A DNA stretch of 64,000 nt from Liolophura sinensis (lineage: Eukaryota; Mollusca; Polyplacophora; Chitonida; Chitonidae): NCBI RefSeq assembly GCF_032854445.1, contig NC_088304.1, positions 8,443,704 through 8,507,703 on the forward strand, in the 5' to 3' direction. Position numbers and translations under genes: made by a program. Below, piece by piece: positions 6,650 through 55,765 of this stretch; position 1 is the first letter of the stretch; every line of letters starts with the position of its first letter. Under the pieces are notes generated by a model, which ran no database searches, was not told where the DNA came from, and saw nothing but the letters and a program-made list of their open reading frames with translations.

Positions 6650-6788
6650 TTAGGATGACTGAGCTAACATACGAATCTCTTCAGCTAATATCTTGGTAAT
6701 CTGCATTGCTTTCTCGGCCTGGGGTCCCCCAATCTGTTCTAGAGCCAGTCCTGCCGCATCACGTACAGACGATATCACATCATTACGC
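6650..6788 (-). CDS. TIRH-A coding exon 9 (last HEAT unit and stop)
   Basis: 139 nt including TAA at 6650-6652; acceptor ATATTTTCAG. It encodes RNDVISSVRDAAGLALEQIG and a short helical tail ending QSS. The TIRH-B last exon is also 139 nt. Confidence 0.94.
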
Positions 6789-52800: not shown

Positions 52801-55765
52801 AATAAATTTTTTTTTCAAATTCACATAATAATGCCCTTTGTTTGAGGGTTGGTTGGGTTTCCCCAACACGTTTGTAATGATGGCCTTTACAGTTGCCTTC
52901 AATACTTAATTCAAGTATACATGTATGTAAGTCAGTACCAGTGTGTTTCTTTGGCTGCAGGTAAATTCTCCACCCCAGCAGTGGTGGCTCGGCTGTTAGA
53001 AATGATGTCTGATCAAGATCCAAACATCCGGGCTGTTACCGCCATAGCATTGGCCAGATCAAGTAAGTCACCAATACGTCCATATTAAGGGAAAGAAATG
53101 ATGTGAAGTGAAGTAGGCAGGAGGGACCATTTGTCAAAAGTGTATTAGAGTTAAAGCTGGATTTAAATGTTAATACCAGTGTCATTCGAAGCCAAAGTAA
53201 ATTGCACAGTATTTATTTATATATTTATTTGATATATTACGCTGTACGTAAGAATATGTAACTCATATGACGGCAACCAGCATTGTGGTGGGAGGAAACT
53301 GGGTAGAGCCTGTGGGAAAACAAATGTCACAGCAGTCTGGACTAAAGATTAATACCCAGAGTAAGTCCTAATACACTGTTAAGTAACTAGGCACGGTAGA
53401 ACAGATTTTAATGGTCTTTTAGCCTATGCTTACTTTATTTTATTGTTTTCTTTCCCTTTAAATATATGTTTGATGGGAGCAGCCTAAAACAGTCGTGACT
53501 GTGGTGGTATACAGTGTTGGTTAAGTCATCCAGAAAAAAAATTCTTTGCTGGGGGTAACTTTAATATTCGAGTTAACTTTAATATTCTGGTAAAATGCAA
53601 GAGATAGAGATTTTGAAGAGGTGCCTGTAAATTATGTTGTAAAGTGTCATAGGTTTCCCTAACAATTTAAGGTTTTTATAGTTCCAGGCTCAAGAAACAA
53701 TCTTAGACTTATGTCAAAATTTCAAATCACTTTAAAATTGTTATTCCTTACATAAGAAGGTCAGAGTATAGCTTCACAACGTAAATTCTGAGTACCTTGA
53801 CATTTCAGCTGAAATAACTGAAAGGAACATACCAAGTTTAATGATTGAAATTTGGATTTAAGTGTAACACATTCTCAGAACAAGATATATGTATTGACAG
53901 CTGACATTGTTTCTGGGTAAGATACTGATCAATGTTACTATAAAGAGCCAGTCATTTGCAGCAAAGGGACTGAACTCTCACTGTACAATCTCATCTGCCT
54001 TTTCTCCAGCAACAAATACATGATCAGTGTTCATTACTTAATGGCCCTGTTGGTTTCTGAATCAGCACAAGCAATACTTCAGCCAACCCTTGAGTTGCAG
54101 TTTTTGTTACATTCTTTCATCACAGTCATCACATCCAGATTTCAAGGCTTATTTCACAGTAAAATGAGTTTAGTATGAACATATAAATGTGGCTTTTCTT
54201 TATATCTTCATTTCAGTATTTTACTCACTTACTGTTCATAATTTCCTGAGAATGGGCAGCAGTGCAAAACAGTTCTTAAAGGGCAAGAAGATAATGCTTT
54301 TCTGTAGCTCTAGCATGGCTGGAGTATGATTTGTATAAATATATTCATGTAGTCATACATTGCGAGCAGCTCGCCCTGACATTTGACCTTTGTCTCCCCA
54401 CTCATAGATGCCCGGTCTAAGAAGAGCCTATCCAAACTGATGAAGGCCCTGGAGGATGAGGATAGGCTGGTCAGGGAGAGTGCATGTTTCGCTCTAGGAT
54501 TTCTACAGGCGGCCTCAGCTGTAGAGGCCATTGCAGACAGATGGTTAGTCTTTTTATGTATATTTTCACATATTGCGTGATAGACATAAATGGTCAGGCA
54601 ACTGTGGTTAACATGCTAGTGAGGCACAATGACACAGGAGCCTCTCACCAAAGTCTAGCTCATGATGAATTATGGTACAGTTCAAAGTCTGGCGGCAACC
54701 TGCCGATTCTTGGTTGTGGGTTTCCTTTGGTATTGGAACATATTTAGATCATACATTACTTTTATGTCAACCTGAACGTTACAGTCAGTTAAACTGCTTC
54801 TATATAGCATCTGGATTCTTACCACTGGCATTATCCCTAGGGGCCCTTAATCGCTTCTCTTCCTGGCAAAGGGGAGTACTTTGATGTCCTCGACCCATCT
54901 GATGCGAAAATCATTAAGAATAATTCCTAAAAGTAGTGTTGGACAAAAGTTAAATAAATAAATAAATATGGTAAATGACCTAAAACTTCGTCCAATGTTA
55001 TTGTCATTTACCATATGTTAGACTTCACTAGTTAGGAAGTATTCATTAAAAACTGCTTAGTTATTATCAAATAAAAACAGACAAAAAAGTAAAGAATTTA
55101 CTGTGCTGTTGACCTGAGCAAAGCCTGTTAAATGGTGTCTATTTGGTTACATGGACTGTCAAGAAACTGTGGTCTCTTGGTCTATTGACAGCTTACTCTG
55201 CATGTACCTAAAATGGCCATAAATTTCGTCCATGACTAACTTGCCTAATTTTCCTGATTCTGAGAGCTCTGTTGAGTTCATAAAAGTGTTTTGAAGTTTA
55301 CTTGGAACATGGTATGTTATTCTACTGGAAACTTGTAAGTTTTAGCTCCAAAAATAATATTGTGTGACATTTATTTGCCTCTTAAAATGCTCTTTTGTGG
55401 GCGAAATTTGAGGTCATTTAGGGTAAGTGAGGTGCCTGTGTTCTTGAGTACATGTTCGTCTACTAAGTAAAACAGTCATGTCTTGCTTTTGTAGTCATAA
55501 CGACCCAATTTCACCTAGTCTGTTCAAAGCTTTCTCTGCATGTTACATGTAAGTTCGGTACATGTCCGTGTGTTCTGGAATACTCATATTTGTTGAAATA
55601 GCAACCTTTTTCTCTTTTAGGCGTAATGACCCAATTTCTCATGTGAGAACAGCAGCCTCAGAGGCCCTGAAGATGATGGATAACGAGGAGGCCAGGAAGT
55701 GTGTTCACATGACTGAAGTTCTCACAGGGGAAATGCAGTCCTTGAGAACAGAGGAGAGCAAGTGA
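43818..55765 (+). CDS. TIRH-C: TIR domain plus HEAT-repeat protein with apparent 1-nt frame break
   Basis: Exons: 43818-43881, 46983-47245, 48328-48419, 48808-48953, 50786-51324, 52961-53062, 54408-54543, 55621-55765. The first exon starts MGCTTSSHSPRHLNG, a myristoylation plus palmitoylation type start. The second continues in frame for about 56 codons, then meets TGA at 47153-47155; the TIR frame is shifted by one and has its own ATG at 47152. From that ATG the remaining exons give 1254 nt (417 aa plus stop) with no break: TIR DVMISYNPADVEH and QCKDELALAY (Glu81, codon 48862-48864), FWPRNFG at 181-187, and HEAT units at about 280-410. It is the most divergent paralogue: its BB-loop exon is 12 nt shorter, its middle exons are fused and its HEAT exon is split. 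The break may be real, an assembly error, or mark a true internal start. Confidence 0.87.
45258..45325 (+). mobile_element. SINE family 1 tail fragment
   Basis: CGGTTTCCTGCCACCATAAT through AACATTCTTGAGTACGGCAT. Confidence 0.6.
45551..45906 (+). mobile_element. SINE family 2 copy
   Basis: Head GCTTCGGTGGCCTTATGGTT, body TGATACTTCAGTGGCGGCAG, tail ACATTAAACCCCAAGTGTAC then (ACAT)n. Lies in TIRH-C intron 1. Confidence 0.72.
45947..46002. repeat. 26-bp direct duplication
   Basis: CCACTCATACCCCACTGCAC plus GCCACT twice. Confidence 0.8.
46274..46480. mobile_element. MITE family X copy, diverged
   Basis: GACCTAACATAAAAATTTCG at left and GGTGAAATTTTATGGCATTT at right; the middle has the AATATTACTTTTGGTGCTGA block seen in other copies in reverse. 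Confidence 0.5.
46983..47245 (+). CDS. TIRH-C exon 2: linker, frame break, TIR strand A
   Basis: 263 nt, acceptor GCATTTGTTTCCAG, donor GTGCGT. The upstream frame encodes an acidic, Asn/Ser-rich linker and stops at TGA 47153-47155. The downstream frame starts at ATG 47152 and encodes MTTELAESSRDVIDVMISYN. The exon is 1 nt short of the length needed for one continuous frame. Confidence 0.82.
47648..47884 (+). mobile_element. SINE family 1 copy in TIRH-C
   Basis: GCTTAGCGTGCTAGCGCAGC through GTATAAGTGAAATATTCTTG. Confidence 0.78.
48328..48419 (+). CDS. TIRH-C exon 3: TIR strand B and BB-loop (short)
   Basis: 92 nt, acceptor TTAATCAG, donor GTAAGC. It encodes GALRAEGLSVWFSDMDNPNL and GQAVSQCK. 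It is 12 nt shorter than the 104-nt exon of A and B; the loss falls in the BB-loop. Confidence 0.9.
48808..48953 (+). CDS. TIRH-C exon 4: TIR catalytic glutamate
   Basis: 146 nt, acceptor ATGTTGCAG, donor GTAAGG. It encodes VFVLVLSEKSACDPQCKDEL followed by ALAYITD and IFPVGLQRF. Confidence 0.94.
49000..50345. repeat. Large intronic array, CACCTGTCCATCAATCTATC type
   Basis: About 32-bp units (CTGTAATTCAACCCACCTGT plus CCATCAATCTAT). It contains a nested 439-bp duplication, 49362-49800 against 49801-50239, with only a few differences. Confidence 0.9.
50786..51324 (+). CDS. TIRH-C exon 5: fused middle region
   Basis: 539 nt, acceptor ATTTTTTTTAG, donor GTGAGT. One exon covers what TIRH-A spreads over four (167, 163, 143, 132 nt). 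It encodes KLMLAKINWTFF, the FWPRNFGDKREVSWVNF signature, and [20 protein letters not shown] at the start of the HEAT region. Confidence 0.94.
51340..52745. repeat. 42-bp minisatellite seeded from exon 5 end and donor
   Basis: About 33 units of CTTTCAGTGGTCCAAATGTT plus AGGAGAGTGTCTTGGATCCAGA split at a TTAGG core. The unit matches the 3' end of exon 50786-51324 and its 5' splice site. Confidence 0.93.
52961..53062 (+). CDS. TIRH-C exon 6: HEAT repeat
   Basis: 102 nt, acceptor TTTGGCTGCAG, donor GTAAGT. It encodes ARLLEMMSDQDPNIRAVTAI and the following turn. With exon 7 it totals 238 nt, exactly the single HEAT exon of A and B. Confidence 0.92.
53208..53318 (-). mobile_element. SINE family 1 fragment in TIRH-C
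   Basis: ATATTTATTTGATATATTAC through GGAAACTGGGTAGAGCCTGT. Confidence 0.6.
54408..54543 (+). CDS. TIRH-C exon 7: HEAT repeat
   Basis: 136 nt, acceptor CCCCACTCATAG, donor GTTAGT. It encodes LSKLMKALEDEDRLVRESAC and FALGFLQAASAVEAIADRW. Confidence 0.92.
54588..54740 (+). mobile_element. SINE family 1 copy, old, in TIRH-C
   Basis: ATGGTCAGGCAACTGTGGTT, ACACAGGAGCCTCTCACCAA and TTGGTTGTGGGTTTCCTTTG match head and body with many changes. Confidence 0.55.
55208..55421. mobile_element. MITE family X copy
   Basis: CTAAAATGGCCATAAATTTC to GGGCGAAATTTGAGGTCATT; lies in the last intron of TIRH-C. Confidence 0.65.
55621..55765 (+). CDS. TIRH-C exon 8: last HEAT unit and stop
   Basis: 145 nt including TGA; acceptor TTTTTCTCTTTTAG. 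It encodes RNDPISHVRTAASEALKMMD and a charged tail ending RTEESK. The last codons form the first unit of the 86-bp array that follows. Confidence 0.94.

Follow-up and report, generated by a model that had tools for sequence, protein, structure and literature searches.

Enzymes built on TIR domains connect bacterial, plant and animal immunity, and SARM1 is the main such enzyme studied in animals. They act when their TIR domains come together, and the ARM-repeat part of SARM1 keeps its TIRs apart. SARM1/TIR-1 is an ARM-SAM-TIR NAD+ hydrolase. SARM1 has been described as auto-inhibited (PMC7282519). Among other described systems, ecTIR-DC proteins are widespread in invertebrates and apparently absent from vertebrates, with eight reported in a placozoan study (PMC6321704). 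Plant paired receptors are mostly head-to-head (PMC9528088), and plant TIRs without the glutamate appear to come from paired sensor genes (PMC7282519). In this study, we analyzed a window of 64,000 nucleotides (nt) from the chiton Liolophura sinensis (contig NC_088304.1, positions 8,443,704 to 8,507,703 of the forward strand; all positions below are those of the window), which holds three TIR-HEAT genes, here called A, B and C. Sequence and model together indicate that every one of their proteins consists of a TIR domain, a Cbl-type EF-hand-like module and a HEAT solenoid, in this order. Our explanation, advanced tentatively and held to be only a little short of an even chance, is that the locus represents, in the chiton, a linked pair of TIR-HEAT genes of ancient origin, in which A-type TIR effectors of the NADase type would have a C-type regulatory partner; we infer both the enzymatic activity of the A-type and the A/C pairing.

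We reconstructed every exon of the three genes from the six reading frames and the splice sites, with introns of the GT-AG type. Gene A (minus strand, 18895..6650; 9 exons, 513 amino acids (aa)) and gene C (plus strand, 47152..55765; 7 exons, 417 aa) were found by protein search to be 100% identical over their full length to the NCBI Liolophura sinensis proteins LOC135476493 and LOC135476138, respectively. Gene B (minus strand, 33435..24682; 9 exons and 462 aa, the 5' end being unsettled) forms a tandem with A and stands head-to-head with C, was absent among the proteins returned by three protein searches, and shares 50% identity with A across 460 aligned codons. Because its codon differences from A are biased to the third position (184/154/295) and its splice phases match those of A throughout, gene B seems to be functional. 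A candidate for its 5' end is an in-frame ATG at 33475, which would give the start MYIAKC, several relatives also beginning with MY; an upstream exon is equally possible, and the donor site of exon 4 is uncertain. All 8 introns of A and B fall in matching alignment columns with matching phases, and gene C keeps 5 of them, lacks 3 and has one intron of its own, its 539-nt exon 4 covering in one piece what A and B divide into exons 4-7. The exon lengths 104/146/132/238/139, which the original prediction had noticed in both A and B, are those of exons 2, 3, 7, 8 and 9. Chance is excluded by the identity to annotated proteins, the conserved intron phases and the third-position bias taken together. 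The same prediction had named separate genes for the TIR exons and the HEAT exons as what would refute it, in which case the fusion would be an annotation artefact. No point supporting this was found, and we regard it as hardly credible and reject it: independent whole-protein annotations in many phyla have the same order, a good number of relatives come from 1.3-3.3 kb contigs that resemble assembled transcripts, and the intron phases common to the genes tie TIR to HEAT along the whole length.

Pfam analysis of the joined exons, the check proposed at the outset, recovered TIR_2 and HEAT_2 in A (2.6e-20 and 1.4e-17), B (1.1e-21 and 7.5e-14) and C (6e-14 and 5.1e-20); in 3/3 the TIR lies at the N-terminus and HEAT at the C-terminus. 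The order is therefore opposite to that of SARM1, as had been claimed; further, SARM1 has ARM repeats, whereas A, B and C have HEAT repeats of the alphaRep/HEAT_2 kind, with no SAM match and a Cbl-like module in between. The claimed lack of the transmembrane and LRR parts of Toll-like receptors and of the death domain of MyD88 was likewise borne out, since Pfam gave no LRR, death domain or NB-ARC match in A, B or C and no transmembrane segment is apparent in them (top 19-residue Kyte-Doolittle means of 1.54, 1.42 and 1.47, respectively). The fold predicted for A from an 85-row alignment (A2), which includes a few C-type rows, has a HEAT solenoid of nine helices, or about four repeats.

Two features had been overlooked in the original prediction, the middle domain and a myristoylation-like motif at the N-terminus of A. 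The middle region of A, B and C looks like a Cbl-type EF-hand-like domain: it shares the sequence motif FW..xFG....V.W..F with the EF-hand-like domain of the Cbl N-terminal (TKB) region, and its predicted fold matches that domain in structure comparison, but the SH2 and RING matches of Cbl are absent from A, B and C in Pfam. Cbl_N2 scores (A 12.8 bits, or 15.2 as a segment; B 12.7; C 14.8) stand below the Pfam gathering score of 22 bits, and 13 of 22 family members are matched at E up to 1 (best 3e-5). A STAT linker as the middle domain was rejected, only 2/22 members matching STAT; the structure-comparison rows include no STAT, which excludes nothing. A functional Ca2+-binding EF-hand found no support as a general property of the family, for the canonical 12-residue loop occurs in 3/79 A-type rows, all three hemichordate, and 0/48 C-type rows. 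The start MGxxx[S/T], which we take to be a myristoylation signature, is present in 39/78 A-type and 8/48 C-type records.

The best sequence match of the TIR domain in a profile search was the prokaryotic Cat1, by a wide margin (E 8.5e-11; WC.DEL aligned with YC.DEL), and the predicted structure has a TIR fold, as anticipated, with SARM1 as the best Foldseek match. For all 12 segments compared by Pfam, TIR_2 was far better than TIR. With rows labelled A- or C-type by tree, or else by which search returned them, the A-type rows conserve D116 (74/79), G123 (77/79), S151 (79/79) and Glu157 (76/79), the last of which we equate with SARM1 E642 by motif spacing; among C-type TIRs, D116 and G123 both fall outside the six most frequent states, while 9/48 retain S151 and 34/48 retain Glu157. 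Judged by these residues, A-type TIRs retain the BB-loop and the candidate catalytic glutamate, and C-type TIRs have degenerated. A reading of the C-type as simply catalytically dead is not supported, given the retention of the glutamate in those 34 rows, chiton C included. The predicted TIR fold and the candidate glutamate are thus what the A-type shares with a SARM1-like TIR NADase.

TIR-HEAT proteins might instead be non-enzymatic adaptors, the TIR recruiting MyD88/Toll-type TIRs and the HEAT part other partners, as proposed for ecTIR-DC proteins generally. The leading position of Cat1 and SARM1 among the matches, the preference for TIR_2 and the near-universal retention of BB-loop and glutamate in the A-type all speak against this alternative, which we consider possible but doubtful. 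Several points lend it weight at the expense of the enzymatic explanation: in fold comparison the TIR of the Toll-related Hydra protein TRR-2 ranks equal to SARM1, with MyD88 next; TLR15 is ahead of SARM1 in the profile search and also has the candidate catalytic glutamate; ecTIR-DC proteins have been suggested to act as adaptors or regulators (PMC6321704); and TLR4 and MyD88 have been reported to be without NADase activity (PMC7282519). Since the glutamate is shared with TLR15 and two other TIR proteins are reported to lack the activity, an NADase-type function of the A-type TIR is plausible but putative.

A tree of 101 rows gave two clades with support 99 each, one with A and B of the window and the other with C; it was made by a quick method, contains several long branches and left out most unnamed records as well as the short or TIR-less P0061, P0065, P0147, P0148 and P0150. 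The same A/C split (98/95) was obtained in a careful 38-row tree after removal of the TIR columns and the flagged long branches. The approximately unbiased (AU) test, with groups picked once the first tree was available, rejected the grouping of A- and C-type genes per lineage (chiton, p 0.0005; amphioxus, 4e-9; Lineus, 9e-7) and with it the idea that C arose recently by divergence from an A/B copy. The tandem arrangement of A and B and the inverted, divergent state of C, as first described, are upheld, but C is not a mere diverged copy: the trees place it in a second paralogous clade. Molluscs, annelids, nemerteans, hemichordates and amphioxus are represented in both clades, as are Trichoplax rows, of which the C-side one is on a long branch in the 101-row tree; a sponge falls on the C side in the 38-row tree. 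On the evidence of these unrooted trees, the A-type and C-type split before the bilaterian phyla.

The architecture had been called uncommon, which it is not, the same order being conserved in chiton, gastropods, bivalves, cephalopods, annelids, nemerteans, brachiopod, bryozoans, echinoderms, hemichordates, amphioxus, tunicates, acoels, Trichoplax and the sponge Corticium. No vertebrate, arthropod (including insects), nematode or cnidarian was found among the TIR-HEAT matches with a legible organism name; each search scored about 8,000 candidates, and the absence is indicative rather than proven. Two further family members (P0161 and P0162) came from a third protein search, which used a mixed profile, and in one EukProt protein (P0151), on a long branch in the 101-row tree, a protein kinase domain is joined to TIR and HEAT. 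A bacterial protein (P0096) has an N-terminal TIR_2 and many HEAT repeats, with no middle domain by Pfam, and close kin of it occurs in an Ardenticatenia metagenome-assembled genome (L001 729-2852), so the TIR-then-HEAT order is also found outside animals. Assignment to a named antiphage family was rejected, the PADLOC matches being at the domain level only.

In 20 of the 27 species having both types, the contigs that bear the A- and C-type genes are equal in length and were treated as one contig, a tally in which short or partial records of Patella (P0147) and Ridgeia (P0148) were classed as C-like, and of Lingula (P0065) and Plakobranchus (P0061) as A-like, by best match rather than by tree, and in which one of two A-type contigs of Babylonia was counted. 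One alternative is that the two types act independently and that their linkage is the slow decay of an ancient tandem duplication; we see in this a serious possibility, if clearly below an even balance. Tandem paralogues often remain on one chromosome and many of the shared contigs are chromosome-sized; seven species (Haliotis rufescens, Ylistrum, Aplysia, Octopus, Plakobranchus, Saccostrea cucullata and Lymnaea) are exceptions to the linkage, Octopus and Haliotis rufescens having the two types on different contigs, and all this tells against a functional pair. However, the two types, whose split is older than the bilaterian phyla, are also closely linked on three scaffolds (Lingula, 212 kb; Ridgeia, 438 kb; Dimorphilus, 866 kb), and the gene numbers are adjacent or near-adjacent in the brachiopod (Lingula LOC106162413/415), nemertean (Lineus LOC135483234/236), annelid (Dimorphilus 13574/13576) and amphioxus (Branchiostoma floridae LOC118425519/522). 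Head-to-head orientation was seen in the chiton window only. The linkage hints that the A- and C-type work as a pair. In the original prediction, the fusion of TIR to a repeat scaffold was read, by inference, as a self-contained sensor-effector; the conserved linkage suggests a putative two-gene system instead.

In gene A (minus strand), exon 1 (18586..18895), which is 100% identical to LOC135476493, carries the myristoylation-like start MGSKVSS, a disordered N-terminus and the first TIR strand. The 104-nt exon 2 (17371..17474) encodes the BB-loop region of the TIR, the 146-nt exon 3 (14546..14691) contains the candidate catalytic Glu157, and exon 4 (13577..13743) encodes the TIR end and a helical linker. 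The Cbl-type EF-hand-like domain starts in exon 5 (10541..10703; FWQQHFG...) and continues through exon 6 (8788..8930), and the 132-nt exon 7 (7976..8107) holds the end of the middle domain and the first HEAT helices, followed by HEAT repeats in the 238-nt exon 8 (7311..7548) and the last HEAT repeat and stop in the 139-nt exon 9 (6650..6788). A long minisatellite (10838-12183) lies in an A intron. Between A and B, an open reading frame (ORF) of 251 aa (22043-22795, plus strand) matches RNase H (3.5e-6) and is probably a retroelement remnant; it was the only one of ten long ORFs scanned (four between genes, the others in introns, overlapping the end of C or in the flank, which is not an exhaustive gene search) to pass the Pfam cut-off, two marginal matches near E 0.09 being set aside.

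In gene B (minus strand), the first recognised exon (33265..33435) encodes the TIR start, with the 5' end unsettled, and is followed by exon 2 (31634..31737, 104 nt; TIR), exon 3 (30773..30918, 146 nt), exon 4 (29700..29851; TIR end and linker), exon 5 (28140..28308; start of the Cbl-type EF-hand-like domain), exon 6 (27150..27289; the same domain), exon 7 (26608..26739, 132 nt), exon 8 (25648..25885, 238 nt; HEAT repeats) and exon 9 (24682..24820, 139 nt; last HEAT repeat and stop). A (TA)43 array (30923-31008) ends a few bases before the acceptor of exon 3, and could affect B splicing or vary between individuals. Long minisatellites also lie between B and C (34867-35463 and 37416-37806).

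In gene C (plus strand), exon 1 (47152..47245; 100% to LOC135476138) carries the start MTTELAE and the TIR start, the 92-nt exon 2 (48328..48419) encodes TIR with a shortened BB-loop region, and the 146-nt exon 3 (48808..48953) encodes TIR including DPQCKDELALAY. The Cbl-type EF-hand-like domain is in the 539-nt exon 4 (50786..51324), and HEAT repeats follow in exon 5 (52961..53062), exon 6 (54408..54543), which the C-specific extra intron precedes, and exon 7 (55621..55765; last HEAT repeat and stop). Long minisatellites occupy C introns (49020-50327 and 51378-52766), the fourth intron being largely filled by a 42-bp unit in about 30 copies. About 50 bases past the C stop codon starts an 86-bp tandem repeat (55812-56177), whose unit has the short stretch GAGGAGAGCAAGTG in common with the last codons of C. 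Across the window, a dispersed short repeat family with many copies on both strands (for example at 1984, 6931, 19341, 24119, 31924, 34134, 39362, 42039 and 47667) dominates the best 200 of 761 rows of the self-comparison, and no RNA gene was found, there being no Rfam match at gathering thresholds.

No TIR-HEAT animal family was found in the literature searched, nor any mention of a Cbl-type domain in its middle, of two ancient types or of their being linked; the search did not cover Gerdol et al. 2017, which defines ecTIR-DC, and a prior description is possible. The absence of the family from vertebrates, insects, nematodes and cnidarians among the named matches may explain the lack of papers. 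TIR-HEAT occurs in many invertebrate groups, as ecTIR-DC does, a comparison made at the level of the class description rather than of a numbered family; in the parts covered of three papers mentioning ecTIR-DC, none describes TIR-HEAT, and ecTIR-DC family 6, with ARM-like, Death and two TIR domains (PMC6836662), has an unlike layout. New here are the Cbl-type middle domain, the two ancient clades, their linkage and the contrast in TIR conservation between A-type and C-type.

Returning to the explanation of the locus as an effector-regulator pair, the A-type proteins would be cytosolic TIR enzymes of the SARM1/Cat1 kind, membrane-tethered in many species, that would cleave NAD+ or make an ADP-ribose signal once their TIRs are brought together. 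The HEAT and EF-hand-like part would take up a trigger and hold or assemble the TIRs, as is argued by analogy, and the C-type, whose TIR is without the BB-loop, may bind the A-type as a regulator or sensor, a role suggested by its altered TIR surface and the stable linkage; such binding is proposed as the reason why the two genes stay together. The likely setting would be invertebrate cell-intrinsic immunity or stress-induced cell death. The closest, though imperfect, parallel is with plant paired TIR-NLRs such as RPS4/RRS1, which are likewise two linked paralogues; in the present family one type has a sound and the other an altered TIR, and in the window the two stand head-to-head. Stable linkage of two divergent paralogues is what the 20/27 species and the separate ancient clades display. 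Most C-type proteins keep the glutamate, however, which makes the parallel imperfect and counts against the pair as we explain it; A, B and C also have no NB-ARC or LRR, the orientation is known in one species only, and the spacing is wide.

At its broadest, the proposal is of an animal paired TIR system in which a membrane-tethered, NAD-cleaving A-type is checked or licensed by a linked, degenerate-TIR C-type, both using a Cbl-type module, retained from before the bilaterian split, perhaps even from before the divergence of placozoans, and lacking in vertebrates and the common model animals; in this full form we rate it as unlikely. The family spans sponge to amphioxus and tunicates. Should the A-type prove to be an NADase with the C-type as its partner, the two would make up a second TIR-enzyme system of animals, convergent with the paired receptors of plants and testable in oyster, sea urchin, amphioxus or Trichoplax.

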